Below, piece after piece: positions 11,902 to 59,475 of a stretch of DNA of 64,000 bases. The translations under genes and the position numbers were made by a program. The notes under the pieces were generated by a model that ran no database searches, had not been told where the DNA came from, and saw nothing but the letters and a program-made list of their open reading frames with translations. This DNA comes from Amphibalanus amphitrite (lineage: Eukaryota > Arthropoda > Thecostraca > Balanomorpha > Balanidae): contig NW_024881533.1 in assembly GCF_019059575.1 (NCBI RefSeq), forward strand, positions 434,001 through 498,000, written 5' to 3'. Position 1 is the first letter of the stretch; each line of letters opens with the position of its first letter.

Positions 11902-12281
11902 TTAACCCGCGCCCTGGTGGGGGGAGGCTATTTTTTGCCCCCCCCCCCCTCCAGACTTCTCGATATATCTCCAGAACCGCTGCGCCGATCGTCACCAAAC
12001 TTTCAGTACCCTCCCGGGCATCAATTTTACACATTGTGACTAAATTTTTTCCAAAGGCTATGATAGGTTGGCTGCAAATGACGTCAGAGTGACGTCATGT
12101 TCTGCCGTTTTCGACCCAAAAAAGGTTTCGCGGGAAGAGCTGTCAGGCCTATAGCTTTGAAGATACAGAAAAAACGTTAAATACAAAACAGATGTAGAAT
12201 CACCAGGGCTACAAAATTGCCATCTCAGAATTATGAACTTTTTGAATTATTACCCCAAAAAAAAATCAAAAAAATATTTGT

Positions 12282-13319
12282 TTAACCCTCGCCGGACCTA
12301 TTGGTTTTCTACATACGCGCCGGCCGAGGGGGGGGGGGCGGGTATGACCCCCCCTCGCCGTTTCGCCCCTGGTGGAGCTAGCGCGTCGCGGAAAAAAACG
12401 AGCGTGTGCGCCGTTACGAGACGCAGAGATCGGTATCCGATTTTAAGGTCCTAGGTCAACCGGTGACCTCTGAGGTCAGGTCAAGTGCCCCAGGGTACGG
12501 TTTAGTTTTTGGTGAATAACTTCGCAAAAAACGGCCGCAGAGCCGCGATTTTGGCAGCATCGTGTTCGCCTTGCTCAGGCGCGTCGAATGATATGCCTTT
12601 TGTTCGGGTCAGGTCACCTTGGGGTGTTGACCTCAGGTCAAGGTCAGGTCAGCACCCCCAGGTCACAAAGTTGGTCGAAAGGGGTCATGTTGCATATCAT
12701 TCGATTCGGCAGGTCTTCCTGAGTCCATTGGTGGCTTCCGCGACTCGCTAGCTCAATTTGATCAAGAGTTATTGACGAAAAACTAATATGACCTTGATGA
12801 CGTCATAAATGACGTCACGCAAGGTCAATATTGCAAAAGTGACGCATCTAACCTTGCAAAGAGTGCATCAAATCACGATTCTGTGTGCTTGAGATAGTTG
12901 GAGATCGTTCCCGGCGCCAGAATAGCAGTTTTCATTTTTCCCCATTGACTTATAATGGTGAGGTCACGAAAATGACCTGACCTCATATGACCTTTAGGAA
13001 AAATCCGAGATATACAAGTTGTGTGACTCATAATGGATACTAGATCCTGCAAGTTTAATTTCCCTGGGACATCTCCTCTGGCAGTGAGGGCGTTGCGAAG
13101 TTGCGACATCTGAAGACCGTGCAGAGGTTCACTTATGACGTCATAGGTCAGTGACCTGACCTGACCCAAAAATGCGGTTGGTGTCAAAAGATCTGGCTTG
13201 AATCAAAGGTCAGGTATGCCAAGTTTCAGCTCTCTATCGCCAGCGTGTTCGGAGCTATCGCGAAAAAACCCTATGGGGGGGGGGGCGGCACCCGCCCCCC
13301 CTCGGCCGGCGAGGGTTAA
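12282..13319 (+). mobile_element. TTAA-flanked AGGTCA element, family T2, complete
   Basis: TTAACCCTCGCCGG at the left and CCGGCGAGGGTTAA at the right are perfect inverted ends, TTAA included; 1038 bases. G-run/C-run hairpins lie at about 12326-12357 and 13276-13303. The centre has a 13-bp perfect inverted repeat (TCGAATGATATGC at 12584-12596, complement at 12692-12704). Between these arms stand several AGGTCA/TGACCT half-sites, including TGACCTCAGGTCAAGGTCAG. No coding capacity. It is inserted into the T1 copy at 11902-14687 and is therefore younger. Confidence 0.9.
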
Positions 13320-13694
13320 TATAACTGCCAAACAATCCAACAATTTTTCGATTTTCGAAAAACCAGAATTCCTATATGTGATAGCCCTTACCAACTCCTA
13401 TTCACATACCAAATTTAAGATCGATACCTCTTTTTTGGCCAAGTTATAGCGAACAAACTGTTCAAAATTGATGACGTCAAGTTTTCAAACTTAATGTTTA
13501 GCAATTCTAGACCTCGTAGCGCAAAACAAAGACCACCATTAGACTTGCCGTGACGAGCTGCATCGAATCAATACCAATTTTATGCAAAACTATCAACTTT
13601 AAACTTTGACCTTTTTTGACCTAACCTTGACCTGACCTCCACTAGAAAATGACTTAAACCGTACCTGATGGTCTCATAACCAACACCATTGAGT

Positions 13695-14505
13695 TGGAGT
13701 CGGGGGAGGTTTGGTCAATCGTTGCCATTTTTAGCACGTGCTATTTTTGTCACACGTGCCAAAAATGGCAACGATTCTGCTATTTTTGACAACGATGAAG
13801 CCGATTTCACTCCTCAGCGAGGAAATCACGATTTTGGAAAGATAAGCACTGATTTTCGAAAAGAGGTGCTACCACCTACCTGGTGCAAGAAGAAGAAGTC
13901 AGCTTTAATATGCCCGTTGTTTGTATGTATGGTAGTTTGTTTTGTGGCCTGAAGCTGGAAATTAAAATTGGAGCATCCGAAAATGATCGATATTGGTCGA
14001 AAACATGATGTTGATGAAAAAAATAATATGTTTAGTTGAGCGAGGAGGTCATTCCATCCAGATGCGGTGGTTTATTTCTTGAAATTGTTTTTGCTAATTG
14101 ACGGCCGCGCATCATCCGTCATTACCTGGCGGTCGCCGGTCGTCATAAACAAAAATAATTTTAAGAAGTAAACCACCGCATCGCATCTGAATGAAATCGC
14201 CTCCTCTTTCAACTTAACATATTCTTTTTTTATCAAAATTATGTTTTCGATCCATATTGATCATTTTCGGATGCTGCAAATTGAAGTTCCAACTTCAGGT
14301 CACAAAAAAGGGTATACGTCAACGTTGGACTTCCATATAAACAACGGCCATATTAAAGCTGGTTTATTCTTCTTGCACCAGGTGGCAGCACTTCTTTTCC
14401 AAAATCAGTGCTTGTATTTCCAAAATCGTGATTTCCTCGCTGTGGAGTGAAATCGGCTTCATCGTTGCCAAAAATAGCTGATTGCGATGTCATTTTTGAC
14501 CGTCA
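13695..14505. mobile_element. Foldback element, arms about 350 bp
   Basis: The left arm (about 13750-14100) and right arm (about 14125-14490) are reverse complements over most of their length (shared blocks include AACGATGAAGCCGATTTCAC and GAGGAAATCACGATTTTGGA), meeting around 14110-14125. Nothing is coded. Edges are approximate because it lies inside a repeat. Confidence 0.85.
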
Positions 14506-14687
14506 TCGGTGACCCCGAGGTCAATGAAATTGAATTTCCCTCGACAAATTTGACAGGCCTTTCGAGCGCCGTTTGAATTTTGCGGAATTTTACGGATCCG
14601 TCCAGTAGTTTCGGAGATACGGGGGGGGGGGCAAAAATGCCCCCCCGCGCGGAAGGTGGACGGGAGGCCCACCGCCTGCCGGGTTAA

Positions 14688-15660: not shown

Positions 15661-18385
15661 GCCGAAAACGGGACGACTGTGAAAACAGGGCGCCTGGGGC
15701 TATTTGATCAAGGTTCGTGAAATTCACACGTGACACGGTTCGTCGGAAGGTCATCTCAGGCTCAAAAGAAACGGTATATGCCATTCGAAAGCTGACGGTG
15801 AGCTGAATCCAAAAATGTATTTTTTATCAAAATCGATCGATGGCCTTTTTTGAAAATTGCGTTTTTGTAAAAACTTTATAATTTTTTAATCAACGGGCTG
15901 TCCCGGGAATTCTTGAAAAAGTAAGCATGTTTTTTCGAGTTCCAGTGAAAGCTGAACGCCAAAAGAACAATATTTAGCGAAGCAATATTTCCTAACATTA
16001 ATATGCGTCTCCCACAGCCGACAATAAGGCGCAATCACACAGCTCAGTGTCACGATGGACCCAAGTCAGCCACACAGAAGCGTGAAATGACCCTTATCGA
16101 CTCGCAGACCCGGCGCTCTCGGCCCGCCTGACCAGCCACGGAGAGAACGTTCGGCTCTGGATTTACTAAACAAATGTCATATTTGTCAGTTTAACTGTCT
16201 ACATCGCTATTAAAGTTATTCAGGATACCTGTGAAGAAAATTCGTTGTTCTGCTTGATCTACAACATGCTTTAACCCGGCAGGCGGTGGGCCTACCAGCC
16301 ACCTTCCGCGCGGTGGGGGGGGGGGGGCACTTTTTTGCCCCCCCCCGTATCTCCGAAACTACTGGACGGATCCGGAAAATTCGAACGGCATTCGATAGCC
16401 CTGTCAAATTTGTCGAGGGAAACCAAATTTCATTGACCTCGGGGTCACCAATGACGTCACAGGTCAGGTCAAAGATAAAATGTTTCACCGTTCACGGGGC
16501 TTCTAGGGAAAGCGCTATAACACCGAGTAAAACGCATTTTGTCGAAAATCAGCGATAAGGCGTCAGTTGTCTAGTACATATGTTGCTATTAGAGGTCACT
16601 GGTCATACCAGGTCAGGTCACAGGTCAGGTCACCAAAGGTCACCAAGGGTCACCACATGAGCCCAACTTTACTAAGGTTATGCGATGCATGTTTTATGGC
16701 CAGTTTTTCATTTCCAACTCAATGGTGTTGGTTATAAGACCATCAGGTACGGTTTAGGTCACTTTCTGGTGGAGGTCAGGTCAAGGTCAGGTCAAAAAAG
16801 GTCAAATTTCAAAGTTGATATTTTTGCATAAAATGGGTATCGATTCGCTGCAGCTCGTCACGGGGAGTCTAATGGTGGTCTTTGTTTTGCGCTACGAGGT
16901 CTAGAATTGCTAAAAATTGAGTTTGAAAATTTGACGTCATCAATTTTGAACAGTTTTTTCGCTATAACTTGGCCAAAAAAAGAGGTATCGATCTCAAATT
17001 TGGTATGTAGATAGAAGGCGGTATGGGCTATCACAAATATTCCGGTTTTTTCGAAATTCAAAAAACTTTTTGGACTTTTAGGCTATTATATTCAAAAAAT
17101 CTATTTTTTGATTTTTAGGGGTCAAAATCCAAAAAATTCGAAAAACCGATATAGCAGTTTTGTAGCACTCTTGATTCCACACCTTTTATGTCGAAAACAT
17201 TTTTCTGTATCTCTAAAGCTGTAGGCCTGACAGCTCTTCCCGCGAAACCTTTTTTTGGGTCGAAAATGGCAAAAATGACGTCACTCTGACGTCATTAGCG
17301 GCCAACCTATCATAGCCTTTGGAAAAATTTTTGGTCACCATGTGCGCTAGCTGCTCCCGGGAGGGTACTGAAAGTTTGGTGACGATCGGCGCAGCGGTTC
17401 TCGAGATATATCGAAAAAACTAAAGGGGGGGCAAAAAAATGCCCCCCCCCACCGCCTGGAAGGTTAATTTACATTTTTTCTTATACATGTTTTGTTCCAT
17501 CCAGCTGCGCTCAGTGCCCGCGCAGGGGAAGTGAGCGGGGTTTCACCGTCAGAGGCTGTACTGGTGACAGCTGCTCGGCCGTGCGACCGGTCAAAGGTTA
17601 CCCTGCCCCACCGGGCGCTACCCCCACTCCACCCGAGCTGAGGCCGGTACAACCTCTGACATTTCAGCGCGGTCAATTTTCCTTATATGGGCATGATACC
17701 AAGCTCAATTGAGCAAAGAAGACATGAACAAATGCAAATTAATGCATGATGTGAAGATGACAGAGCAATGAATCTTCTGCTCATGTATCCTGAATAACTA
17801 AAGTACCGACTTGAATCGTTAAACTAACAAATATGACGTCTGTTTAGTAGAACGACAGCCGAACCTCCTTGCCGTGGCCGGTCAGGCGGGCCGAGAGCGC
17901 CGGGTCTGTGAGTCGATAAGGGTCATTTCACGCTTCTGTGTGGCTGACTTTTGTCCATCGTGACACTGAGCTGTGTGATTGCGCCTTATTGTCGGCTGTG
18001 GGAGACGCATATTAATGTTTGGAAATATTGCTTCGCTAAATATTGTTCTTTTGGCGTTCAGCTTTCACTGGAACTAAAAAATATATGTTTATGTTTTCAA
18101 GAATGTCCGGGACAGCCCGTTGAATAAAAAATTATAAAGTTTTTACAAAAACGTAATTTTCAAAAAAGGCCATCGATCGATTTTGATAAAAATTACATTT
18201 TTGGATTCAGCTTACCGTCAGCTTTCAAATGGTATATATCGCTTCTTTTGAGCCTGAGATGACCTTCCGACGAACCGTGGTGACGTTTAGCATGTAGAAG
18301 GCCCACGGAGGGGGAGAAGCTCCAAATGTCACGTGACTAATATGCCCTCCGGCGCCCTGTTTTCACCGGCGTCCCGAAAACGCGC
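15661..18385. mobile_element. Long inverted-repeat (foldback) element with arms of about 550 bp
   Basis: The left arm (about 15661-16205) and right arm (about 17790-18385) are reverse complements with small differences. Shared blocks include GTGAAAACAGGGCGCC, TTCGTCGGAAGGTCATCTCA, GTCGGCTGTGGGAGACGCAT (in complement) and CGGCCCGCCTGACC. The loop contains a complete TTAA element, inserted later. No transposase is seen. The exact outer ends and target duplication are not clear. Confidence 0.85.
16271..17467 (-). mobile_element. TTAA-flanked AGGTCA element, family T1, complete, reversed
   Basis: TTAACCCGGCAGGCGGTGGG at 16271 and CACCGCCTGGAAGGTTAA ending at 17467 bound 1197 bases, with G-run/C-run hairpins at about 16313-16347 and 17424-17455. 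In the middle are AGGTCA arrays (16600-16660, 16760-16805). It is collinear in reverse with 58267-59475 over its whole length with few differences. No ORF. It sits in the loop of the foldback element. Confidence 0.92.
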
Positions 18386-20380
18386 CAATTTTCAAAGGGT
18401 TTGAGCGCGCCAGTTGAGTTTGAGCGTGCAGTGGAGAAGGACGGTTGTGCTCAGCGCGGGTGATAGCGGGTGTGTAGTGTGTGCATTGATCATTCGAGCA
18501 AAGGACGTCGTGGAGGACATCGAAAGCACAGCTGTGGAACCCAGAAAAGACGAAACCTGCACGACAACGACTTTTCGGCGTGCCGGAAACCGGAAAATTC
18601 ACCCAAGAGACCCTTGGTGGGCGTGTTTGCCCGCACCCGGTGTAGATCTGCATGACTATTTTACGGTCAGCGCCCGGACCCGAGCAGTGCGCAGTATCTG
18701 GTCCTATTATCCCTTTTACAGGGTCCGACATATAAGTTTTGTCTTGTAAAAATGTGTCGTGTAAGCTGCTAGGTGAAAGTCAGCAATTGTTACAGGATAT
18801 GCAATGCTCTAATGACATCTCTTTGGTAATGAACAGTTATTTAACATACACGCCATTTTTGCGTTGCTGAAACCACCGTTGATTTTCGTGTTTTATAACC
18901 CAAACTAGGTGTCCAGCATTACGCGCAGCCTAATAAATTGACCACATTATTGCCAGCCTGGACCCAATTGGCTTATAATTGGCAGCTGACAATGGTCAGT
19001 TATTGCGTCTGGTGCCGGTGAACTATTGTGCCTGGCCTCCATAAGGTCATTTTAATCAGTTTTAAGCTTCACAATTGTGTGTGTGAGCACCTGGCGCCTG
19101 TGAGCTCCATGTGCCTGGCCTGGCAGAAAGGCTGTTTTACCCAGTTTTAACCTCTGTATGATTGTGTGTGTGAGCACTAGGTGCCTTGGAGCTCCTTGTG
19201 CTTGACCTGGCAAAAAGGTCATTTTACTGTTTTAATCTGTATGAAGTGTGTGTGAGCACTGGGTGCATGCTGCCCAAGTGCTTGACCTGGCAGATGGGTC
19301 ATTTTACCATGTTTTAACTTGTGTTTTGTGTGAGTGGGCACTATTCCTTGCTTACTGGCACCTTGATGCGTTATCTGACTATGGTGTTCTGTTTGGGCTG
19401 CGTGTTCAACTTGCTTCTCTTAATTGGATAGGTTCACATCAAACCTAATGATAAAATCCATGTTCTGGTTTGCCTACAATCATGCAATACTTACCTATTG
19501 CAAATTACATATAATAAGCTTGAAAGCAAGTCACACAGCCATTGCTTACTTTCTTCAACATTCATAATCTCATTTTTCTTTTTGTGTTCTGTATCCTCGA
19601 ATTATTTTCTTATAAACTTCTATATTCATAGCCACTATGCTTTCATCCTGCACCCCCCCCCTCCCCACATCCCTGTCGGCCCGCCCTTAGATCTGATACA
19701 TAGATTGCAGTAACTATGTAAGTTGTAACACACATTGTGACATGTCACTCCCACAGACACGCGTGGGCAGCAGCCTTTGTCTGGCTATGATCGTAAACAA
19801 AAGAGGCGCCTTTGCCCTTTGTTTCTGGACTCGCTGCCGTGGCTGGTTTCGGTCGCGGTGGCTTGAGTCCGGACTGGCCTGTCCTCCGTCCTCCGACCCT
19901 AATAGGCATCTTACCTGCCTCAGCGCCAGCGCCATCTACCTGAAACTCCCTAGATGTCGCTGTCCTCTCGGCCTCACGGATTGTCTCCCATTCGTGTGGA
20001 GGCCTGTTGAGGCCTGTGTGTAACCGGCGATAATGACTGCATACTTGCCTACGCCCACTACTTACCTTGGTTTGCATTTATCTATACTGAGGAGTGCTAA
20101 ACGCCTTCTGGTGTTACTTGGTAACATGGTTAGCTCCCTTCATGGAAATTATTTCATGTCACCAGCTTACTACTGCACATACCACTTCGTAATATGTGCT
20201 AACTTACATGCATCAACGTTTTGATATATGTATCAAATGTGTCCTGGTAATAATATCAGGCATTGTTTGGTAAATTTGTTATAGCTTTATTTTAGTTACA
20301 CCCAATCCCTAAACACCTGATAGGGTTTCCTTCCAGTACCTTTCATCACCTTTTACTCAACCTTCTTTGCATAATACTAT
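18386..20380 (+). other. Probable 5' untranslated region of the LINE at 20381
   Basis: No protein homology is recognised. From 19005 to 19330 there are about four tandem 80-86-base units (listed separately), an arrangement known from promoter monomers in some LINE 5' UTRs. A short stretch at 18904-18935 (AGCATTACGCGCAGCCTAAT) matches the unit start of the 440-bp array at 28.5-31.6 kb. The LINE's true 5' edge is not visible. Confidence 0.4.
19005..19330 (+). repeat. Tandem 80-86-bp units upstream of the LINE ORF
   Basis: Units start near 19005, 19081, 19167 and 19249. Each contains GTGTGAGCAC (absent in the first), TGCTTGACCTGGCA or a variant, and GGTCATTTTA…GTTTTAA. Confidence 0.8.
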
Positions 20381-22984
20381 ATGCAAGCGCAACCACATGA
20401 AACCCTTCCACCTCTCCTTAATAACAAAATATTTAACCCGTTTCAAAGTGTTGGCCCTACGAACCTTTCCTTTTTACATGAGCAATACGAACACCTGAAA
20501 CGTAACTGCAAATATTATACTCCTTTTCAACCGGAACTGTTTTCCCATGAGCATAGTGATGGGCTTTCTATTATACACATCAATGTTAGATCTATTCTCA
20601 CCAATGAAAAGTTTGATGATTTTCAAACTTTCATTTACTCAACTGGCAAACACTGGAGTGTTATTTGCTTAACAGAAACCTGGCTAGATCCTTTCACAGA
20701 GCAGTACAGGCATCTCCCAGGCTATACTTCAATTTTTAGTAGTCGTTCTAATAAAACAGGTGGAGGTGTTGCGATGTATATATGCAATAAGTGCATAAGC
20801 TCAACATCGCCTCTAAAAATGAATAAGATTGATGGGACAGAATCTTTATTTGTTGAAAGTACTGTACAATCCAAACAAATTGTACTTGGTGTTGTCTACA
20901 GGCCCCCACGTCTCTGTTCTTCCCAGTTTATTGACCAAATGACTGAGGTACTTGAACACACAAGTATATGTCATAAGGATGTTATTATCACCGGTGACTT
21001 TAACTTTGACCTTTTCCAAGTTGCAACAGATAGCTCTGTTGAAAACTTTCTGCACATGTTTACCGCGAATGGTTTCTTTCCATGTATTTTTAGACCTACA
21101 CGACTTGGTGTCGACAGTGCATCACTGCTTGACAATATATTCTCTAATAACCTTTCAATCTTGAATGATCCAGGTCTTATTTTGAGTGACTTATCAGACC
21201 ATTTCCCAGTGTTTGTCGATCTTACTCTCAGAACAGACAATTCTCATAAACATATGAGGCAAACCATCACTTCTTTTAACTATAACATGATTCCTCACTT
21301 GCAAACTCGTTTGCAGTTGAAACTAAGAGACTTCTGTAATGAAACTGATGCGGAACACGCATGTACAACATTCATAGAAGCCTACACTTCCGAGATATCT
21401 AGGTGCAGCCACACCTATACTCCCACTCGGAAAAAGACACCTATTAAACCATGGATTACCCCTGGCTTATTGGTTTCCATTAACAGAAAAAACGAGCTTT
21501 TTCGTATAAAGAATAGACACCCGTCTCCCCTCAATATCAAGAAGTACAAACGTTATAAGAATTTGTTCACTCATATACTGAGGAAAGCCAAACAAACTTA
21601 CTATCAGAATGCACTAAAAGATTGTGGCCCGAGGGAAACCTGGCGGCTACTGAACGAGATAACGAAAGGAAACATAATTAAACAAGAAAGTCCACCTTCT
21701 TTTAAGATTGGTGATGATGTTGAAAATGACCCAAAAATAATCGCCGAATCTTTTAACTCATACTTTGCTAGTGTTGGCAATGACTTAAAAGAGCGGATAC
21801 CTCCTTGTTCCACCGACCCTATTGAAAATCTTCCTAGAGGACTAGGAAACTCACTATCATCATTCACCGAAACTAATGACATTGAAGTTACTGAGATAGT
21901 AAATAGCACCAAAAAAGTTGGTGGTGGAATAGACGGCATTAATGCACGTATTTTTAAAGCAACTTACCAGACTGTCCTTAGAGAGCTTGTCTTTCTCTTG
22001 AATTTATGCTTACGCCAAAACGTGTTCCCTCGCCCTTTGAAAACGGCGGTTATAAAACCAATTTTTAAAGCAGGGGATAAGCAACGTTTTACAAACTATA
22101 GACCAATAAGCATACTGCCTTTTATATCGAAAATACTAGAAAAACTAGTACATACCCGACTTGAGCATTTCTTTGAACATAACAAAATCATCACCGAATT
22201 TCAGTTTGGTTTTAGAAAAAGCATGAGCACTTACATGCCCCTTCTTTTGGTTCAAGAAAAGGTAAACCAAGCATTTGAAGCAGGCAAAGTTGTCTGCGGC
22301 TTATACCTTGACCTCCGAAAAGCATTTGACACTGTGAACCAAACCATTTTACTTAAGAAACTGTATGCTTACGGTATACGTGACAATGCACTTATGATGC
22401 TGAAATCATATTTAGAAGGCCGCACACAGTGTGTTGAGGTAGAGCATGTTCGCTCCAGCCTTGCTTCGGTTGATATCGGTGTTCCCCAGGGCTCCATCCT
22501 TGGGCCACTTCTGTTTTTAATTTACATCAATGACTTTCCCTCCATTTCTGATGATATAACTGCATATCTGTATGCAGATGACACAGCCATTTTCATTGAA
22601 GGCAATGATGAAGCCCATTTGCAAAGAGTCATCGACGCCACAATGCCCAAGATAGCTGTTTGGTTTCAAGCAAACCAATTATCTTTAAATACAGACAAAA
22701 CTTTTTGTCAGCTCTACAATAATTCTAAACGCGCTGTCAATGTGTCTGTTTTGCTCTCTGGTGCACACATTAAATTTATTAAAACAGTTAAGTACTTGGG
22801 CATGTACGTAGATGACGATCTGAAATGGAAATCACACATTTCACACCTTTCTACAACGCTGACTCGTAACGTTGGACTCATAAGCAGAGCTAGGTATATA
22901 TTGGTACCTAAACAGCTGCTTCTTTTATATAACGCACTTTTCCTTCCGTATATCAACTACTGCTGTCAAGGCCGTATAAGTTAG
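20381..22984 (+). CDS. CR1/Jockey-like LINE ORF2, endonuclease and reverse transcriptase (first part)
   Basis: The start is the ATG at 20381. An AP-type endonuclease fills residues about 60-290 (IIHINVRSI, LTETWL, GVVYRPP, GDFNFDL, LSDHFPVFVDL). The reverse transcriptase follows at about 555-800 with NYRPISILPFISKILEK, LYLDLRKAFDTV, GVPQGSILGPLLFLIYINDF and the catalytic YADD at 731-734, all intact. Native coding stops at 22966 (PYINYCC), where a 3.2-kb insertion starts; the last residues (QGRIS) come from the insertion. The rest of the protein lies beyond it. Family role: target-primed reverse transcription of the element's own RNA. No stop or shift is seen before the insertion, so the copy was young when it was interrupted. 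Confidence 0.94.
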   Translation: MQAQPHETLPPLLNNKIFNPFQSVGPTNLSFLHEQYEHLKRNCKYYTPFQPELFSHEHSDGLSIIHINVRSILTNEKFDDFQTFIYSTGKHWSVICLTETWLDPFTEQYRHLPGYTSIFSSRSNKTGGGVAMYICNKCISSTSPLKMNKIDGTESLFVESTVQSKQIVLGVVYRPPRLCSSQFIDQMTEVLEHTSICHKDVIITGDFNFDLFQVATDSSVENFLHMFTANGFFPCIFRPTRLGVDSASLLDNIFSNNLSILNDPGLILSDLSDHFPVFVDLTLRTDNSHKHMRQTITSFNYNMIPHLQTRLQLKLRDFCNETDAEHACTTFIEAYTSEISRCSHTYTPTRKKTPIKPWITPGLLVSINRKNELFRIKNRHPSPLNIKKYKRYKNLFTHILRKAKQTYYQNALKDCGPRETWRLLNEITKGNIIKQESPPSFKIGDDVENDPKIIAESFNSYFASVGNDLKERIPPCSTDPIENLPRGLGNSLSSFTETNDIEVTEIVNSTKKVGGGIDGINARIFKATYQTVLRELVFLLNLCLRQNVFPRPLKTAVIKPIFKAGDKQRFTNYRPISILPFISKILEKLVHTRLEHFFEHNKIITEFQFGFRKSMSTYMPLLLVQEKVNQAFEAGKVVCGLYLDLRKAFDTVNQTILLKKLYAYGIRDNALMMLKSYLEGRTQCVEVEHVRSSLASVDIGVPQGSILGPLLFLIYINDFPSISDDITAYLYADDTAIFIEGNDEAHLQRVIDATMPKIAVWFQANQLSLNTDKTFCQLYNNSKRAVNVSVLLSGAHIKFIKTVKYLGMYVDDDLKWKSHISHLSTTLTRNVGLISRARYILVPKQLLLLYNALFLPYINYCCQGRIS

Positions 22985-24770: not shown

Positions 24771-24780
24771 TAGCCTTTGC

Positions 24781-25340
24781 TTAACCCTCGCCGGCACAGG
24801 CCATGTTGCGTCATTCGACGGCAGGGGGGCTGGTACGACCCCCCCCCTCGCGCCTCTGACAGCTTCGTAACATGTTACGAAGGCACCAAAACTACTTCGT
24901 AAATGTTCAAATGGTTACTAAATTCGAAATCAGCTCCAAAAACTAGCCTAGAAACATGTAAAACTTGAAAAAGTGAACCGAGGTCACCAAAGGTCAATGA
25001 CCTGACCTGACCTTGGTGACCTTGACATCCACCCTAATGCATAAGAGCAACATCAAATCACATGTTTGAACATTTGAAACCACGAAAAGCTTGCAAACGC
25101 GCGGCTAATGCGAGCCGACATACGCCGAATCGCGATTCCGGCCAAACATGGTCTCGGAAAGTAGGTCACAGGTCAAAGGTCATTTGGGTCAGGGTCATGA
25201 AATTTTCAGGGTAGGTGTACAATTGATCAATGCGAAGGTACTGAAAGTTTCGTCACGATCAGCCGCTTTTTACGCGAGTTATTCGCGAAAAACCTTAGGG
25301 GGATTGCATCAACTCAACTCCCTGTGCCGGCGAGGGTTAA
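24781..25340. mobile_element. TTAA-flanked AGGTCA element, short family T5, complete
   Basis: Perfect 20-bp inverted ends TTAACCCTCGCCGGCACAGG, TTAA included, bound only 560 bases. A G-run/C-run hairpin lies at about 24823-24848, half-sites at 24983-25022 and 25163-25196. No ORF. Confidence 0.92.
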
Positions 25341-31400: not shown

Positions 31401-31577
31401 GCACACCGCTGCACGCACCCCCTCGAAAAGTTGATACGACAAACAGATGCACGCGTCCGACTTCAGTCGAAAATTTCACCCCCGTAGCCCGCACCGTTCC
31501 GGAGCAATAGCCCGCCAAGCGTGACGGACGCGTCACATACATACATACATACGGACATTTTGATTTTTATATATGTA
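28470..31577 (+). repeat. Tandem array of seven units of about 435-480 bp
   Basis: Unit starts lie near 28470 (truncated), 28885, 29322, 29775, 30242, 30685 and 31143. Each begins AGAGGGACAGCATTACGCGC with the near-palindrome TTACGCGCAGCGTAA, passes AAATCGGCCCAGTAGCGGCC and CCGTTCCGGAGCAATAGCCC, and ends with (CATA)n and GGACATTTTGATTTTTATAT. Two unit starts are doubled in tandem. Units are highly alike. Minus-strand frames of 86-138 codons stay open in several units but start and stop at different places. The short (CATA)n tail before the last motif resembles LINE or SINE tails, so the array may be stacked retroposon ends. Confidence 0.93.
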
Positions 31578-32353
31578 AATAGATATTAAATGTCGATTCA
31601 TGATGATCTCAGATTTACTTATCCCAAGTTGCGTCTTATCGGGAGAGAAACGGTGAAGCCATATGTCCATGCTGTTGTCACCAATGTAAAACATGAATAA
31701 TAATAAAAGACCAAATGTCTGTGAGTTTTGGATGTGTTACGATATATAAAGGGAAATCGGACGAGGGAGCTGAGAGTAATGAGACAGTTTCTGAGCAAGC
31801 TCTACGACGAATATACCAAAGGCATTATTATTTTCCCTTCTGGGTTTATGTGGGTCTAATGCAAGAATACATTGAGATCAGTGATGGAAATCACAGAATA
31901 ATACGGGAGTGTTAAGTGGTATAATGCGAGTATAGTTTGCAAAATATTCCCCTTATACGCTTAGAAGGAATACTAGATTTTTCGATGTAAGGGTATTTTG
32001 GTAGGTTAAAAGGAGTGTACTGGGGGTATCGCAAGGAATAGAACAGGAATCATATTCCTTTCCTCTTCGGTACTTACTAGGGTATATTAGAAGAATTCAA
32101 GGGAGCTGTTTAAAGAACAAGGGTATAGTTTGGGTATATTCGAAGAAATGATCAGGGTGTTGTTTTAGACCAAAACCCCTAATATGCTTAAAAGGAATCA
32201 AAAAGGTTTTCAGTGTAGGGTATATTAGAAGAATTTCAGAGTGATATTCAAAGAAAGTGTGTTTGAGGTATATTCGGAGAAATGATCAGGGTCTTGTTTT
32301 AGACCAATTCCCCTAATATGCTTAAGAGGAATCAAAAAAGCTCTCAGTGTAGA
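31578..32353. other. No gene supported; dispersed 120-bp repeat at 32070-32345
   Basis: A 66-codon frame at 31715-31915 has no recognisable feature. At 32070-32345 about two tandem copies of a 120-base unit (GGGTATATTAGAAGAATT…ATGATCAGGGT…TAATATGCTTAA) occur, matching 15140-15300 in reverse. Confidence 0.55.
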
Positions 32354-33431
32354 GACACGCGGTAAGCGGCATTCGAAAGAGCGCCAAAAATAATGACAGA
32401 AACACTTGGGTCATTTTTCGGGTCAAGTCAAAGGTCAGGTCGCCAGAGGTCATTAAAGGTCAAATGTAGGCCATTTCCACAATTTTGGAAACAGTCAACG
32501 GCTAACTCGGGAACCAATAGAGCTACAGCGCCGCAGAAAAGCGCATTCGATAGCCCTTTTACAGACCTTTCTGAACTTTGTCCTCAGATTTGACCTCAGG
32601 TCAACGGTTTAGCCTCCAAAGAGCAAAAACTGTAAAAAGAGCCGTTTTCACCAAAAACAGTTTTTCGGTAATAATTTTTTATTCAAGCAAGCCACGACAT
32701 TACTTTTGCCAGCATCGTGTTCCTCTCGTCGAGACGCGTCGAATGAACTATTCGTTGACCTTGAAGGATCATTTTGAAAATTTGACCTCAGGTCAAGGTC
32801 ATGACCTGACTGGAAAGGGTCATGCTGCATATCGGTCGATCCGTATCGTCGAGCTGAATATATCTGACGTGTTTTCATCGCTCTAGCACGTATCTATCAA
32901 AAGTTATAGCCATAAGCCAAAAAACTGCTGGTGACCGTTCGTGACCTGAGATGACCTCAGGGACACACAGGGGTCACAGGTGCATTTTTACGATTTAGTG
33001 TGTCATGTTTACCCATGAACCGATGTTTGAGAGGGTTTTGAACACCATTCGTCCACAAGAGGCGCATTTCAATTTTCTCCCATTGACTTAAAATGGTCGT
33101 AAAATTGACCTGACCTTAGGTCACCGATATCAAAATTCTGAGATAAACATTTTGTACATACTGTTACTCTTATCAATCGCTGAAAGTTTCAAGGCGATCA
33201 CTCAGCCGCTGTAGCTCTGACGAGGAGTGAAACTTTTTCTGAGGTGAGGTCACTTGACGTGACCTGGTGACCTGACCTTGTAAGCCCTGGGTCTGAAATT
33301 TTCACAACATGTGCAGAAAAGATGCGTTAACAGGTGTGCCAAAAACAGCGGCGCTCTGCGCCGCCGTTTTTGAGATATCTGCGAAAAACCGCATGGGGGG
33401 TGTTACAAACACCCCCGGCCCGGCGCGCGAA
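32354..33431 (+). mobile_element. TTAA/AGGTCA element, family T4, left end missing
   Basis: It is collinear with 50441-51508 (GGGAACCAATAGAGCTA, GGTCAACGGTTTAGCCTCC, GACGCGTCGAATGAACTAT, TTTGACCTCAGGTCAAGGTC). The right end has the GCGGCGCTCTGCGCCGCCG hairpin and a G/C-run hairpin (33393-33418) but no TTAA. This is an old copy. Confidence 0.82.
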
Positions 33432-33610
33432 ATAGTATAACCTGAAATGTATTTTTCGAGGTCAATTCTTCTTTTTCTGGGTTCAGTTAAACTTGCGAAC
33501 CTTTCTCAGCTTACCGAATTGAGAATTCACAAGTGGTGTTTGGGTTGCTAGGTCTATGTCATGTGTGTCAGTGCACGACCTTTTTGTCCCGCTTTCCGTG
33601 AACCTTTGTA

Positions 33611-36043: not shown

Positions 36044-37203
36044 TTAACCTTCGCCCCAGTGGGAGGGGGGGGGGGCATATGTTACCACCCTGTCGCGTTT
36101 TTCGCGTGTATATAAAAACCGCGGCGCGTAGCGCCGCGCCGCTTGGGATAGCTTTTGGTACATCAATTTTGGACAATGTATGAAATTTTTGACCCCAGGT
36201 CATGTCAGGTCAGGTCACCAGGTCAAGTTAACTAACCAAGCCTAAAAAAGTTTGCAATCATGTCCAGCCTGCAGTGTTTGTCAGATAGAAACTTGGTGGA
36301 TTGCATGCTGTTATGGGCGCCTAAAATTTGTATATCTCGGATTTTTTATATCCGTGACCTAAGGTCAGGTCAGTGGCGTGACCTTTCCATTACAAGTCAA
36401 TGGAGAAAAATGAAAATGCATCTAGATCCGTGTGTGCGCATAGGAATAGTCCACATATTTCAGAATCACAATGATTTGGACCACCCGTGATGACCATGGT
36501 GTCATTTTTGCTGATAGCCTCTAGAAAGGTCACCCGAGGTCATTTGAGGCTACAAACATATTTTTGCCAATAATTCGCGATTGGAAAGAGATAGAGCGCT
36601 GGGGATGGTCTCATTGTGTTTGTCTTGTTGAGACGCATCGACTGATATGCAACATGACCTTTTCTGGCCAGGTCATGACTTTGACCTGAGGTGACCTTTC
36701 AAGGTCAAATTATAGTTCATTCGACGCGTCTCGGTGAGAGGAACACGATTCTGGCAGTAGAAATGTCGTGACGTTTTGTAGTCGATATTGTCGAAAAACA
36801 CTCTTCGTAAAAACCGCTATTTTTGGAGTTTTTGCCCTCTGGAGGCTAAACCGTTGACCTGAGGTCAATTTTGATAATAACCTTATCAAAAGAAGAGTTC
36901 AAAAGCTATCGATTGCTTTTCCATGCGTTTTTCTAGCTACCATATAGTTCCTGAGATAACGGCATGTTCCTGAAAAATATAATGACAATTAGCAAATTTT
37001 GACCTTTGATCACCTCTGGTGACCCCAATATTGCTCTAAGATGAAAAATGACTGAATTACTTTCAAACGTACGCATTGAGAGCTATCGACTGCTTTTTAC
37101 CGCGTCTTTCTAGCCCTCTTAGTTTTTGAGTTAGAGGTGGGTGGTAACATATGTCCCCCACTAGGGCGAAGCTGGCTGAGACCGCCACTGGGGCGCGGGT
37201 TAA
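36044..37203 (-). mobile_element. TTAA-flanked AGGTCA element, family T3, complete, reversed
   Basis: TTAACCTTCGCCCCAGTGGG at 36044 and ACTGGGGCGCGGGTTAA ending at 37203; 1160 bases. G-run/ACATATG structures lie inside both ends and the hairpin GCGGCGCGTAGCGCCGC at 36121-36137. The central inverted repeat has arms at 36632-36650 and 36712-36730 around half-sites. Nearly identical in reverse to 41424-42611. No ORF. Confidence 0.92.
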
Positions 37204-41068: not shown

Positions 41069-41147
41069 CGCGGGCCGGGCTGGGAGCGGGCCGGGCGCAC
41101 AGACCTGTCCGAAAACATAGCCCCTTTCAGTCTCAATGCGGGACTTT

Positions 41148-41423
41148 AATTAACACGCGCAGTGGAATGGTTGCGAATACTACGCCCAGTGGAAGGGGGG
41201 GGGGGAGGTGAGGTCAAACGTGGTCAAATCTGCCATGTGAGCGACTTTTTTTGCGTTTACACGCCAGTAACTCAAAAAGTTACCGGCCGATTTTCTTTTT
41301 TTCTTTCACTATACGAAAGAACGTACATTTGTGAGTACCTATGTACGGTGAATTTGTAGTTAATCCAACAAGCAATATGGCAGTCAGAACTTAGAAGCCT
41401 GCTAAGGGTAAGATGTCGCCGGC
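41148..41423. mobile_element. Left end of a TTAA-type element, interrupted by the T3 copy
   Basis: TTAACACGCGCAGTGGAA at 41149 is followed by a G-run and AGGTCA-type half-sites (GAGGTCAAACGTGGTCAAAT). Its phrase AACTCAAAAAGTTACCGGCC recurs at 42665-42690 beyond the T3 insertion. The right end was not found. Confidence 0.45.
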
Positions 41424-42611
41424 TTAACCCGCGCCCCAGTGGCGGTCTCAGCCAACTTCGCCCTAGTGGGGGGGGGGGGGGGGCATATGTTACCACCCAC
41501 CTCTAACTCAAAAACTAAGAGGGCTAGAAAGACGCGGTAAAAAGCAGTCGATAGCTCTCAATACGTACGTTTGAAAGTATTTCGGTCATTTTTCACCTTA
41601 GAGCAATATTGGGGTCACCAGAGGTCATCAAATGTCAAAATTTGCCAATTGTCATTCTATTTTTCAGAAAACATGCCGCTATCTCAGGAACTATGGTAGC
41701 TAGAAAAACACATGAGAAAGCAATCGATAGCTTTTGAACTCTTCTTTTGAAAAGGTCATAATCAATATTTACCTCAGGTCAACGGTTTAGCCTCCAGAGG
41801 GCAAAAACTCCAAAAATAGCTGTTTTTACGAAAAGGGTTTTTCGACAATAACTTTCGACTACAAAAAGCCACGACATTTCTATTGCCAGAATCGTGTTTC
41901 CCTCGCCGAGACGCGTCGAATGAACTATAATGTGACCTTGAAAGGTCAACTTGAAAATTTGACCTCAGGTCAAGGTCATGACCTGACCGAAAAAGGTCAT
42001 GTTGCATATCAGTCGATGCGTCTCAACAAGACAAACACAATGAGACCATCCCCAGCGTTCTATCTCTTTCCAATCGCGAGTTATTGGCAAAAAACTGTTT
42101 GTAGCCTCAAATGACCTCGGATGACCTTTCTAGAGGCTATCAGCAAAAATGACACCTTGGTCATCACGAGTGGACTAAATCATTGTGATTCTGAAATATT
42201 TGGACTGTTCCTATGCGTGCACACGGATCTAGAGGCATTTTCATTTTTCTCCATTGACTTGTAATGGAAAGGTCACGCCACTGACCTGACCTTAGGTCAC
42301 GGATATAAAAAATCCGAGATATACAAATTATAGGCGCCCATAACAGCATGCAATCCACCAAGTTTAAAACCTTTCTGACAAACACTGCAGGCTGGACATG
42401 ATTGCAAACTTTTTTTAGGCTTGGTCAGTTAACTTGACCTGGTGACCTGACCTGACATGACCTGGGGTCAGAAATTTTACACATTGTCCAAAATTGATGT
42501 ACCAAAAGCTACCCCAAGCGGCGCGGCGCTACGCGCCGCGGTTTTTTATTCACACGCAAAAAACGCGACAGGGTGGTAACATATGCCCCCCCCCACTGGG
42601 GCGAAGGTTAA
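41424..42611 (+). mobile_element. TTAA-flanked AGGTCA element, family T3, complete
   Basis: TTAACCCGCGCCCCAGTGGC at 41424 and CACTGGGGCGAAGGTTAA ending at 42611; 1188 bases. A 16-G run and G/C hairpins lie at the ends, with GCGGCGCTACGCGCCGC near 42520. The core runs from 41910-41929 to 42004-42022 with half-sites at 41933-41999, including TGACCTCAGGTCAAGGTCAT. No ORF. Confidence 0.93.
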
Positions 42612-42945: not shown

Positions 42946-43734
42946 GATGTAAAGACGGAACCGTCCCGCCCCGTGCCCCCGGCACAGTCTACCATTCAGG
43001 CGGCGCGTAACGGCTAGCGCCGGCCGCCGCGCCAACGCGCCGCCGCGGCGGCAGGATGTTTGACTTTACACCGCTATTACTAGAAAAGTTGTGAACCGAT
43101 TTTCTTATTTCCTGCACGAATCTGATGGAATATTTTCGATACTAATCGTTAAGTAGACTGACTGGCTGTAAAGAGACTATTTGCCCCTGTACTTCGACCT
43201 TTATTGACAGGTCTTCAAAGGGGCAATGCGATTAAAAAACAAGCAATAATCGCAATAATCATGCCATACCGCCATCCACGAAATTCTAAAAATGATCGAT
43301 GTTAAAACACGTGACACAACTTACAGACAGTTCGTACTCCAGTAAGTGTACTTTTTCAAAACACTGTCCCATATGGGGCTAAGCGAGAACCTTCCGACAC
43401 CCTGATCTGGTTATGGATTGCATTATCGAATCTCGATGGCCTCCCTTACGACACGGCGGGACCATGTTGGCTCGACCGCCAGCGTGCTAGCCTGACCTGG
43501 GTCAAATGGTTGGCGACACTGGAGCCAGTGTTCAGCTAAAGGGGATGTATCTGACTTCCCATGCTTTATGGCTTTACATGACTTTACAGTCTCATGTAAC
43601 TCATGACTTTACAGTCTCATGTAACGTATCGCTACGGATGGAATATTTTCGTTTTACGTGTTTAACACTCGCAACAGAGATGTCTTTCACATAAAAATTA
43701 AGTAAACTTAAAGAAATTAATTAAGTTTAACTTA
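42946..43734. other. No gene seen
   Basis: A GC-rich patch at 42950-43060 with GGCGGCGCG motifs is followed by AT-rich sequence. A short tandem duplication (ACTTTACAGTCTCATGTAAC) lies at 43579-43625. Confidence 0.45.
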
Positions 43735-44535
43735 ATCAAAATGCATCATGTCGCATATCATTCGAACTGCCTGATGACAAGGAACACAACGACACCGTTT
43801 TTGAAGCTCTAGCCTCATTGTGTGCCAACTCATTAGCAAAAAAATAGTTTGACCTTAGTTGACCTCAGTTGACCCTACCCAAGCGTTCTTGTAGCTTGCA
43901 AACACCAAGTAAATGTAAATCAAGGTAGTACAACACAAAAACGCTAAAAGAAAGCACACATCTCTTATCTTTACACATTCGGGCAAATTTCCTTAAAAAT
44001 TGTCATGACCTCTAGTCTCTCGATGACCTCAGGTCAATCGAATTTCAAAATCTGGGGTGCATATGATGGAACTCGGTGGCCTTAGCATATCCTGCAAATT
44101 TGAATCAAATATAGAACTCTAGTTTCCATGAACAAAATAGTGCATTTTAAGTGCCATCTTGACAATGCCCCAGTTTTTGTGACCTTGTGACCTGACCTCA
44201 GGTCACTGGAACCTCAAACTCCCTGGTCAAGTGACAAATAGATGCCCCAAGTCGTGTCTGAAAGTTGGTAGCGCTACGTGCCATAGCACCCACGCTATCA
44301 ACGAATAACTCTGTCATTCAGTTGCCGCTAAACTAGTCCAATTTTCCCCTGACCTTGTACCGGTTTTTGTGACCTAGTGACCTGACCTGAAAAGACTGAG
44401 ACTTGAAATTGTCAGGATAGGTGCGAAAAGACTGCCCCAGAGGCTATGCTAAATTTAGCGGCGCTACGCGCCGCCGTTTTTACCTTATTTGCGAAAAACC
44501 TTTTTGTATCAACCCCCTCGCTGGGCGAGGGTTAA
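43735..44535 (+). mobile_element. TTAA/AGGTCA element, right half only
   Basis: It starts near the family core (GTCGCATATCATTCGAACTG) and ends GGGCGAGGGTTAA at 44535 after the hairpin GCGGCGCTACGCGCCGCCG (44459-44477). The left half is missing. Many TGACCT half-sites occur (43850-44390). Confidence 0.8.
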
Positions 44536-50348: not shown

Positions 50349-51508
50349 TTAACCCGCGCCATGCTGGTGGTCTGAGTTTTCCGTGTCGTGCTGGGGGGGG
50401 GGGAGGTCACGCCCCCTCGTCTAACTCGGCTCCTAGGTCGCGTAGCAACACGCGTTAAGCGGTTTTCTAGGTTAGGTCAAATAAGGTCAGGTCACCAAAG
50501 GTCATCAAAGGTAAAATGTTGCCTATTTCAATATTTTTCGAAACACCGGCACATAGCTCGGAAACCAATAGAGCTATAGTGCCGCGGTATAGCGCATTCA
50601 ATAGCACTTTCAAATGTGTTTCTGTAAAATGCCCTCAGAATTGACCTCTGGTCAACGGTTTAGCCTCCAGAGGGCAAAAACTCTTAAAAATAGGAGTTTT
50701 ACGAACAATATTTTCCGGCAATAGCTTTTGACTCAAGAGAGTCTCGACATTACGTTTCCCAGCATCGCGTTGCTGTCGTCGAGACGCGTCGAATGGACTA
50801 TAGGATGACCGTGAAAGGTTATTTTGAGAATTTGACCTCAGGTCAAGGTCATGACCTCACCGGGAAATGCCATGTTGCATATCAGTCGATCTGTATCGTC
50901 GAGCTGAACACAACTGAGGTGTTTTTATCGTTCTAACATGTATCTATTAAAAGTTATTTTCAAAAAACTGTTGTGGACCTTTCATGACCTGGGATGACCT
51001 GTAGGACATAATGAATGGTCACAGGTGCAATTTTATTCAGTGTGTTAATTTTACATGTATCCTATTCCTCATGCTTGCGATTGTCTAGAATGGCGCTCGT
51101 CCAAAAGAGATGCCTTTCAGTTGCCTCCCATAAACTTAGCTACCCCTACCTAATGGAGATTGGAGAGGTCGCAAAACTGACCTGACCTTAGCTCACAAAT
51201 ATCAAAACTCCGAGATATACATTTCATGAATATTGATGCTTTCATCAATCGCTGACAGTTTCAAAGCGACCGATCAGTCGGTATAGTAATGGTGAGCATT
51301 TTAAATTTCTGGGGTTAGGTCACTTGGCATGACCTGGTGACCTGCCGTTGCATGACCCGGGTCTGACATTTATACAACATGTGCAGAAAAGATGCATGAT
51401 AAGGTGTGCTAAAAACGGCGGCGCTGCGCACAGCTGTTTTTTTTTCAGATATTTGCGAAAAACCTGAGGAGGGAGCATGACAACGTCCCCCAGCACGGCG
51501 CGTGTTTG
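50349..51508 (+). mobile_element. TTAA-flanked AGGTCA element, family T4
   Basis: TTAACCCGCGCCATGCTGG begins it at 50349. The right end CAGCACGGCGCGTGTTTGA has lost a clean TTAA. The core inverted repeat has arms near 50783-50795 and 50877-50890, with half-sites TGACCTCAGGTCAAGGTCAT between. Left G-run hairpin at 50391-50413. No ORF. Confidence 0.85.
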
Positions 51509-52359: not shown

Positions 52360-52367
52360 GTTTGACC

Positions 52368-56337: not shown

Positions 56338-56364
56338 GCAAAAATGCCGATGATGTTTACTTTA

Positions 56365-56584
56365 ACCTGACCTGTGACGTCATTGGTGACCTCGACCGTC
56401 GACGTCTATCAAAATTGGTTTCTTTCGACAGTTTTTCCAATTTCCAGTGCTATCAGACGCCATTTGAATTTTGACTATCTGCCCAGTAGTTTCGGAGATA
56501 GGCGGGGGGGGGGGAGGGCTCTGGAGAGCCCCCCCCCCTCAGTCACTCGCGTTATGGAAAATACCCCAGTCATGCGCGGGTTAA
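56365..56584 (+). mobile_element. TTAA/AGGTCA element, right end only (T1-related)
   Basis: TGACCTGTGACGTCATTGG, CGCCATTTGAATTTTGACTA, CCCAGTAGTTTCGGAGATA and a G/C-run hairpin (56503-56539) lead to CGCGGGTTAA at 56584. The left half is missing. Confidence 0.72.
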
Positions 56585-57559: not shown

Positions 57560-57760
57560 ACGTTACCAGCAAGTGTTCTGTGCACCCAGACGTTTATCCA
57601 TGTACCAGTTAGTGTTCCAAGCACCCAGCCAGTTCACCCGGTTACCAGTTGGTGCTCCGTACTCCCAGTCACCCGGTTACCTGTCGGTGCTCCGTGCTCC
57701 CAGTCACCCGGTTACCAGTTGGTGCTCCGTGCTCCCGGTGTTACCTGTCGGTGCTCTGGG
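57560..57760 (+). repeat. Tandem repeat of about 32 bases
   Basis: About five to six units of CCGGTTACCAGTTGGTGCTC plus CGTGCTCCCAGTCA, degenerate at the left. Confidence 0.85.
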
Positions 57761-58266
57761 CAGCTCCTCTGAGGGTATCCGCCGCGTCCGGAGGCCCCCG
57801 GCCGAGAGCCGTCGGCGCGGACTCCTCCGCGTTATGTAGGCGGTATGCGGCGTCATTGGCGTCACCTAGGAAACGCCTCGGCATCCCGGGTGCCGCACAT
57901 CACTCAACTAGTTGACACGCCAGAGACTGATGGGCTCCCGAAGTCTGCAGTCTCGAGTGACATCTGATCACTGGTGGCATTGAGACGATATCCTCGTCAA
58001 TCGTCCCCTGTTGTTTTTATTCCTACGAAATTATGACATCAACTTGCTATATTTTATATGGTACTTTATAGTATATGATTATGCACACGCATTTCACACT
58101 TTTTCTATTACCTATCCATGTTCTCAACATAAAATCTGATATTTACCCCTCGCCGAAGCTGTCATGCAGTTTTCTAGGTAGGTACAGGTCTCGCGGATTT
58201 TAGCGGTAGGTTTTGCACCTAGAAAATCTAGTGTATTTCAGGCTATATCTTCGTCGTCTTTAGCAT
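57761..58266. other. No gene supported
   Basis: A GC-rich patch at 57765-57900 has short open frames without recognisable features. The rest is AT-rich. Confidence 0.4.
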
Positions 58267-59475
58267 TTAACCTTCCAGGCGGTGGAGGGGGGGCATTTTT
58301 TTGCCCCCCCCCCTTTAGTTTTTTTTGATATATCTCGAGAACCGCTGCGCCGATCGTCACCAAACTTTCAGTACCCTCCCGGGAGTAGCTAGCGCACATG
58401 GTGACCAAAATTTTTTCCAAAGGCTACGATAGGTTGGCCGCTTATGACGTCAGAGTGACGTCATTTTTGCCATTTTCGACCCAAAAAAAGGTTTCGCAGG
58501 AAGAGCTGTCAGGCCTACAGCTTTAGAGATACAGAAAAATGTTCCGGACATAAAAGGTGTGAAATCAGAAGGACTACAAAATTGCTATTTCGGTTTTTCG
58601 AATTTTTTGGATTTTGACCCCCCAAAAATAAAAAAAAATAGATTTTTTGAATATAAAAGCCAAAAAATCCAAATAGTTTTTGAATTTCGAAAAAAAAACG
58701 GAATATATATGATAGTCCCTACCATCTTCTATCTACATACCAAACTTGAGATCAATACCTCTTTTTTTGGCCAAGTTATAGCGAAAAACTGTTCAAAATT
58801 GATGACGTCAAATTTTCAAACTCAATTTTTAGCAATTCTAGACCTCGTAGCGCAAAACAAAGACCACCATTAGACTCCCCGTGACGAGCTGCATCGAATC
58901 GATACCCATTTTATGCAAAAATATCAACTTTGAAATTTGACCTTTTTTGACCTGACCTTGACATGACCTCCACCAGAAAGTGACCTAAACCGTACCTGAT
59001 GGTCATAACATAACCAATACCATTGAGTTGGAAATGAAAAACTGGCCATAAAACATGCATCTCACAACCTTAGTAAAGTTGGGTTCATGTGGTGACCCTT
59101 GGTGACCTTTGGTGACCTGACCTGTGACCTGACCTGGTATGACCAGTGACCTCTAATAGCAACATATGTACTAGACAGCTGACGCCTTATCGTTGATTTT
59201 CGACAAAATGCGTTTTACTCGGTGTTATAGCGCTTTCCCTAGAAGCCCCGTGAACGGTGAAACATTTTGTCTTTGACCTGATCTCTGACGTCATCGGTGA
59301 CCCCGAGGTCAATGAAATTTGGTTTCCTCTCACAAATTTGACAGGGCTATCGAACGCCGTTTGAATTTTCCGGATCCGTCCAGTAGTTTCGGAGATACGA
59401 GGGGGGGGGGCAAAAAAATGCCCCCCCCCCCACCGCGCGGAAGGTGGCTGGGAGGCCCACCGCCTGCCGGGTTAA
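58267..59475 (+). mobile_element. TTAA-flanked AGGTCA element, family T1, complete
   Basis: TTAACCTTCCAGGCGGTGG at 58267 and CCACCGCCTGCCGGGTTAA at 59475; 1209 bases and the best reference copy. G/C-run hairpins at 58283-58316 and 59401-59433. TGACGTCAGAGTGACGTCAT at 58446, a half-site array (TTGGTGACCTTTGGTGACC…) at 59090-59150. No ORF. Confidence 0.93.

Follow-up and report, generated by a model that had tools for sequence, protein, structure and literature searches.

The window analysed here, a stretch of 64,000 nucleotides of Amphibalanus amphitrite (C36:434001-498000 of an 807.55-Mb assembly), carries six complete elements, A to F, that start with TTAACC and end with GGTTAA, together with a composite stretch with the same edges and several incomplete relatives. 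These elements are very probably non-autonomous transposons of the piggyBac superfamily, mobilised in trans by the piggyBac lineages of this genome, among which the lineage of a complete transposase-bearing element found at C527:290214-294184.

TTAA-bounded elements of the window

A first-pass annotation, made from the letters of the window alone, had described the six elements and the composite as non-coding, AGGTCA-rich units probably moved by a piggyBac-type transposase. The TTAACC start and GGTTAA end were verified at the exact bases given for all seven stretches, and the six elements do lack coding capacity, since their longest ATG-initiated open reading frame (48-78 amino acids) stays under the 95% value of 100 shuffles in 6/6 cases. 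As for the composite at 11902-14687, its edges stand, but it is really a copy of the B/F family split by element A and by a foldback, with a left tip that is not of the B/F type. Besides, members beyond this first list were detected: one spanning 50349 to about 51507, ends at 44535 and 56584, a probable end at 62500, and four remnants near 2950-3300, 4700-5000, 32450-33450, and 59690-60250. Each element has two non-equivalent ends, one short and the other long or double, and in the rows below the short end is taken as 5', on the model of the autonomous element.

11902..14687, plus strand: B/F-family copy, interrupted at 12282-13319 by A and at 13760-14498 by a foldback; left tip unlike the family tip
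12282..13319, minus strand: complete element A of 1038 bp, with its long (double) end at 12282 and its short end at 13319; inserted into the B/F-family copy
12453..12469, no strand: palindrome AGGTCA-N5-TGACCT in A, beginning at nucleotide (nt) 172 from its long end
16271..17467, minus strand: complete element B of 1197 bp, with its long end at 16271 and its short end at 17467
24781..25340, minus strand: complete element C of 560 bp, with its long end at 24781 and a decayed palindrome in its short end
32450..33450, minus strand: remnant H, kin of D/E and of the member at 50349; limits approximate, intact ends not seen
36044..37203, plus strand: complete element D of 1160 bp, with its short end at 36044 and its long end at 37203
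41424..42611, minus strand: complete element E of 1188 bp, running from its long end at 41424, where the outer tip is followed by an inner repeat (41456-41498), to its short end at 42611; empty site found, with a TGAA variant
43300..44535, minus strand: incomplete member; short end at 44535, left limit undefined
50349..51507, minus strand: member G, similar to E (66% identity over about 1 kb); its long end at 50349 is intact and its short tip decayed
56362..56584, plus strand: fragment; long end at 56584; 72.5% identical to F over 153 bp
58267..59475, plus strand: complete element F of 1209 bp, with its short end at 58267 and its long end at 59475
59690..60250, minus strand: remnant akin to A, 68% identical over 512 bp; limits approximate
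62500..62555, plus strand: probable short end of another member, with tip, G-run, and C-rich stretch; right limit approximate

B and F lie in opposite orientation and share 94% identity, and D and E share 91%. With their non-coding nature, inverted ends, high copy number, and near-constant length (in the best-scored B/F and D/E copies), the elements resemble miniature inverted-repeat transposable elements (MITEs), although their 560-1209 bp exceed the usual MITE limit of 500 bp cited in the available text of PMC2872659. At window position 11902, the tip of the split B/F copy reads TTAACCCGCGCCCTGG instead of the TTAACCTTCCAGGCGG of its family, the B/F match resuming about 14 bp inward, which possibly reflects a tip swap between families. 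The 739-bp foldback inside this copy, about 79% self-complementary, stands where about 256 bp are missing and is not a clean insertion.

The boundaries of the elements were evaluated on 30 B/F copies, F among them, cut from the best 40 of 6,493 candidates. TTAA flanks both sides of the element in 27 of them, the exceptions being two copies with a damaged short tip (L025 and L031) and a truncated one (L032), and the homology stops at these TTAA edges as expected from the first-pass annotation, the flanks of the 27 copies sharing just three short matches. The expectation that empty sites would hold a single TTAA was borne out: 19 of the 31 joined flanks built were searched, with 40 of 3,539 candidates scored, and six of the 19 joints were matched in other repeat copies, with one TTAA in four cases and a one-base variant (TAAA, TGAA) in the other two. 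These six full-length empty sites are all continuous across the joint, three of them being gapped at other places in the flank; one joint matched more than 30 places, one of which was inspected. In the same line, when A and one TTAA are removed, the remainder aligns to 31 B/F sequences, 29 of which are gap-free within two bases of the TTAA. Five of the 27 B/F copies have a boundary TTAA in common with a neighbouring element of the same plan (L023, with a TTAACA tip, L026, L029, L035, and L037), and two D/E copies at C293 are joined on one TTAA, as TTAA targeting would lead to expect whenever a boundary TTAA gets hit.

Tip modules and GC palindromes of the ends

The ends were compared through 119 TTAACC termini from the window and the fetched loci, each differing from the others in its first 16 bases. 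Of these, 31 carry a G-run and, behind it, a C-run, 12 in short and 16 in long position, the remaining three merely reaching into a neighbour. A second copy of the tip module lies exactly 27 bp inward in 11 of the 16 long termini of this kind, and at 26 and 30 bp in two more, while all 12 short ones lack it. Among the 88 termini devoid of G-run/C-run, some repeat was detected in 13, at 27 bp in two of them, one being the long end of E. Palindromes with arms of at least 9 bases were recorded in 23 of the 119 termini, 20 of which carry the G-run/C-run, compared to 4 of 2,380 base-shuffled termini. Measured from the tip, the centre of the GC palindrome falls at 23-29.5 bp in 11 short termini, with a mean of 27.0, and at 50.5-58.5 bp in 14 long ones, with a mean of 54.4. 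The ends are thus asymmetric with palindromic subterminal repeats in the way of piggyBac elements, with the reservation that the short end of C is decayed and that the tips of D and E failed the strict G-run/C-run test. A CC(C/T) motif also stands beside the TTAA in all six elements and at both ends of the autonomous element.

These distances are close to those of the Trichoplusia ni (T. ni) piggyBac, for which the available text of PMC2532691 gives 13-bp and 19-bp inverted repeats set 3 bp apart in the 5' end and 31 bp apart in the 3' end; this places the palindrome centres near 25 and 53 bp, a 28-bp difference with the same polarity. According to the accessible part of PMC11707139, a dimer of the C-terminal cysteine-rich domain (CRD) of piggyBac transposases sits on the palindrome while the core domain contacts the motif adjacent to the tip. 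By analogy with this scheme, the G-run/C-run may be read as the CRD site and the repeated tip modules as core sites. The recurrence of a 27-bp difference between the ends across several families supports the idea that piggyBac asymmetry is a rule of the transpososome rather than the quirk of one element.

Genome-wide, the pattern TTAACCCKCGCC was counted 34,791 + 34,961 times (69,752), versus 62 + 55 (117) for the reversed pattern, and TTAACC-N14-GGGGGG, one form of the short end, 18,510 + 18,526 times versus 72 + 70 for its reverse. Since such matches are termini, the copies would number in the tens of thousands, and both counts bear out the major expansion suspected from the window. The exact short tips amount to 660 + 633 (1,293) for D/E and 759 + 726 (1,485) for B/F. 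For D/E, 40 scored of 3,100 candidates yielded 41 near-full-length matches with 94-100% identity to E, E included, and the 27 B/F copies differ by a mean of 2.9% from their majority sequence; as these values come from the best-scoring copies, they reflect young members and not the family average.

The piggyBac partner and the probable mobilisation of the elements

The search for an autonomous partner relied on a genome profile search in which 116 DDE_Tnp_1_7 matches were scored and the best 30 cut as loci. Both own ends were visible in 18 of these loci, one in eight, and none within about 1.5 kb in four (L042, L050, L064, and L066). In the 26 loci showing ends, no window-type tip was found as own end, the types present being TTAACCCATTAG, CCCTTTACC, CCCAGATC, and similar ones. 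The upstream flanks of 14 further loci, several of which belong to one lineage, did not reveal any window-type own end either, although one of these loci (L080) adjoins an E-type element, whereas the downstream flanks of eight of the 14 revealed the C527/C1173 lineage. Two other candidates were set aside: L066 (C778), with a 58% identical transposase and an AGGTCA-rich 3' flank, since its own end was not seen, and the TTAACC of L001, L003, and L005 as another tip type, since it looks internal, L003 having an A-type end about 200 bp beyond.

In two copies of the lineage C527/C1173, the 3' end reads TTAACCCTCGCACGACCAGG... and contains AGGTCA sites in addition to an inner repeat and a G-run/C-run palindrome. 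At C527, where the 5' end was located at position 290214, the element is complete, with a length of 3,971 bp and an open frame of 646 amino acids, the gene being flanked by the short end on its 5' side and by the long end on its 3' side. The protein matches Pfam DDE_Tnp_1_7 (E=2e-69) and, at E=2e-78, 6x67, which is the piggyBac transposase of T. ni. Aspartates are aligned with chain positions 268, 346, 447, and 450 of the latter, which we take to be its catalytic residues, and the C-terminus is cysteine-rich, the C-terminal cysteines of the T. ni protein being largely kept. The transposase of this lineage has five long genome matches at 96-100% identity, one of them with a stop, as well as fragments on C1797, C512, and C474.

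Next to the C527 element, head to head on a single TTAA, stands a 948-bp non-coding element whose first 315 bp are 91.2% identical to the C527 3' end and whose last 388 bp are 90.6% identical to its 5' end. By these identities, it is a deletion derivative of the C527 element or of a close sister, with about 9% divergence. Besides, the terminal 20-mer of the C527 3' end has 806 + 882 (1,688) exact copies in the genome; it is far commoner than the gene matches, so most of its carriers should be non-coding. The C527 lineage belongs to the group of TTAACCCTCGC tips, like A and C, and A is 67% identical to both the 3' end (over 206 bp) and the 5' end (over 195 bp). An autonomous DDE_Tnp_1_7 element with matching ends, as predicted by the first-pass annotation, thereby exists for A/C-type tips, with the same end plan, while none was identified for D/E and B/F. 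The intact partner and its adjoining non-coding relative, derived from both its ends, make origin and cross-mobilisation directly testable, as a genome-scale case.

Taken together, the TTAA edges, the empty sites, the C527 element with its DDE_Tnp_1_7 gene and shared end plan, and the 948-bp relative sustain the attribution to a piggyBac-type mobiliser. Kolobok and Sola also produce TTAA duplications, which fit several superfamilies and are by themselves not diagnostic of piggyBac, and the D/E and B/F families have no identified transposase among the piggyBac loci examined; it is nevertheless highly improbable that such a superfamily moves the elements, as a piggyBac gene is carried by an element whose ends show this kind of tip, the 27-bp step, and the GC palindrome, with a non-coding relative alongside, and as the CC tips match those of the other piggyBac elements of this genome with visible ends, no search having been aimed at Kolobok or Sola genes.

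Several points nonetheless weigh against mobilisation of all these families by piggyBac lineages. Neither the 30 piggyBac loci nor the 22 further flank pieces yielded a transposase gene with the tips of D/E or B/F, and the G-run/C-run is present in 0/36 ends of the 18 other complete piggyBac elements (few lineages, with many near-identical copies), so that the end plan appears confined to one piggyBac group in this genome. Two of the six empty sites carry TAAA or TGAA rather than TTAA, in which case the filled copies must have gained TTAA first; likewise, none of the 31 B/F sequences has TTAA at the site of A, TGAA being present in 22 and an adjoining gap in two, so the host copy must have acquired TTAA before A inserted. 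No empty site was found for 13 of the 19 joined flanks searched, misses which carry little weight since 40 of 3,539 candidates were scored. Finally, the catalytic role of the aligned aspartates is presumed from the T. ni numbering, and CRD binding to the palindromes is proposed by analogy.

Under mobilisation in trans by piggyBac lineages, the elements would retain what a piggyBac transposase needs in cis, namely the TTAA target, the CC tip, and one palindrome per end at unequal distance from the tip. By analogy, the palindromes would bind a dimer of the transposase CRD and the outer and inner tip modules its core, and the lineages would cross-mobilise families.

Compared to known systems, the elements share with T. 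ni piggyBac (IFP2) the TTAA target, the CC tip, a short 5' and a long 3' end, and a palindrome at similar distance, as far as described in the available text of PMC2532691, and the C527 transposase is homologous, with aligned aspartates and C-terminal cysteines. By the published description of the T. ni ends, they differ through their palindrome, which is a G-run/C-run hairpin, through the second copy of the tip module 27 bp further in on the long end, through the AGGTCA arrays, and, in the window elements, through their non-coding nature. The accessible part of PMC2872659 describes the Acropora CMITEs as non-autonomous, piggyBac-type, TTAA-bounded elements, with families that differ in their ends and have a common internal sequence, tandem arrangements, and limited internal similarity to their piggyBac partner, all of which recall the present elements. 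The CMITEs measure about 100 bp, with about 1,600 copies and a common 75-bp internal block (PMC2872659, same part), whereas those described here measure 0.56-1.2 kb, have tens of thousands of termini, and share an AGGTCA array instead. With the Myotis piggyBat, they have in common asymmetric ends, repeated core motifs, palindromes at different distances, and repeated transposase sites on one end, although the repeat step is 27 bp here and 44 bp on the piggyBat left end (available text of PMC11707139 and PMC13405395). The C527 transposase is nearer to T. ni piggyBac (6x67, 267 bits) than to piggyBat (9c0f, 108 bits). The kind itself, non-autonomous piggyBac elements, is already known, the coral CMITEs being the nearest described case found (PMC2872659, available text). 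As far as could be seen, the novelty lies in the scale and the AGGTCA arrays and, at the ends, in the repetition of the tip module and the GC palindrome. No description of these elements was found in the literature searched with the tip sequences, with AGGTCA combined with transposon, MITE, or receptor sites, and with broader terms, a search from which subscription papers for the most part and repeat libraries were excluded.

Other piggyBac lineages and tip families deserve mention. The TTAACCCATTAGTGCCCA-tipped lineage (L052-L062) has a 604-codon frame and a length of 2,681 bp in the nine of its 11 loci that show both ends; it lacks the G-run/C-run and has 2 AGGTCA sites per complete copy. 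Its genes are 99.9-100% identical over 1,107 bp in 11/11 loci, a similarity that marks a very recent burst, and at L058 the 2,681-bp element is nested in a TTAACCCGCGCC-ended element, one lineage thus lying inside another. A family with TTAACCCTATTAGTGG tips (L087, leftward from 868, and three other fetched termini) displays the 27-bp repeat and the GC palindrome and resembles the TTAACCCATTAG tips carried by other piggyBac lineages; it possibly links piggyBac groups.

AGGTCA arrays

AGGTCA is the half-site of nuclear hormone receptors. The window holds 100 AGGTCA and 108 TGACCT, that is 208 sites compared to 27.7 +/- 3.6 expected from 20 first-order simulations, the reversed word ACTGGA/TCCAGT being present 28 times. 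The six elements are indeed rich in the motif, with 8.3-15.4 sites per kb, and the elements and remnants, as outlined by hand with some approximate limits, have 131 sites in 12,198 bp (10.7/kb) versus 77 in the remaining 51,802 bp (1.5/kb). Over the genome, AGGTCA was counted 972,618 + 970,466 times and the reversed word 189,579 + 188,561 times, an about fivefold excess and a surplus of about 1.56 million; as 131 of the 208 window sites lie in elements and remnants, older remnants, satellites, or other repeats probably add to it. In the autonomous C527 element, 11/11 sites are outside the coding part, a density of 5.4 per kb over the 2,033 bases that are non-coding, compared to a mean of 0.9 per kb of whole length in the 18 other complete piggyBac elements, many of which are copies of one lineage. 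Outside the elements, two tandem arrays at 28488-31583 and 34381-35312, with a unit of 432-467 bp, hold in most units an AGGTCA-type pair 7 bp apart.

Conservation of the motif was measured with the motif masked in the alignments, as a first count (202/326 versus 2,138/16,396 for other words) was set aside because the alignments could favour a repeated motif; that count omitted the D/E pair, the pairs with the 948-bp element, and matches below 80 bp or outside 60-88% identity. Once masked, the signal fell. Among E, G, and H, AGGTCA is exactly kept in 70/98 cases versus 68/334 for control words of the same composition, whereas 13 other pairs give a weak signal, 24/117 versus 65/487. All 16 chosen pairs, one of which involves the 948-bp element, give 94/215 versus 280/1,243, or versus 133/821 when overlapping control words are excluded, with inexact p values since the pairs share sequences. 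The common arrangements are overlapping direct repeats, direct repeats spaced by four bases (DR4), and everted repeats spaced by one (ER1), the wider set also including DR5 and the inverted repeats IR1 and IR11; overlapping AGGTCAGGTCA is the commonest, with 19 pairs at a 5-bp step. Counted from the long end, the 17-bp palindrome AGGTCA-N5-TGACCT begins at nt 172 in A and at nt 171 in the autonomous element, whose long end is the 3' one.

In the proposed mechanism, the arrays would be cis-acting sites kept by selection, to which either the transposase or a nuclear receptor of the host would bind. The latter option, in which the half-sites would give the elements a host-driven benefit through open chromatin or germline expression of the source element, is tentative: the identity of the motif, the non-coding position of all 11 sites in the autonomous element, and the conservation among E, G, and H speak for it, while a constant 5' extension was not seen and the overlapping arrangement that predominates is, to our knowledge, no standard receptor element. 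The arrays might also be a passive relic, grown in tandem from AGGTC units of one ancestor, and the predominance of overlapping copies at a 5-bp step as well as the weak conservation between distant families fit this possible origin, but conservation among E, G, and H well over the control words, in spite of masking, speaks against it. That the arrays are internal binding sites for the transposase is a little less probable than either of these: the shared position of the 17-bp palindrome in A and in the autonomous element would suit such a role, by analogy with the internal transposase site of the piggyBat left end, which restricts activity according to the available text of PMC11707139, yet the AGGTCA sites occupy a large part of the element's length, and the CRD already has a suitable site in the GC palindrome close to the tip.

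With due reserve, one may imagine that a piggyBac lineage evolved ends with repeated tip module and GC palindrome along with an internal AGGTCA array kept by selection as a cis signal, its amplified non-coding passengers supplying a large part of the about 1.5 million surplus half-sites. If true, this would amount to a wholesale change in the regulatory raw material of the host genome and, should the arrays work, to a very large transposon-borne supply of hormone-receptor half-sites.

Regarding the rest of the window, Rfam gave no match and one weak trypsin match was recorded. An unbroken frame of 525 codons at 39575-41149 (minus strand) has a rhodopsin-type seven-helix receptor domain. Two frames of the long interspersed nuclear element type, counted from stop to stop, carry endonuclease and reverse transcriptase domains, one at 20375-22984 (plus strand, 869 codons) and the other at 45133-48768 (minus strand, 1211 codons).

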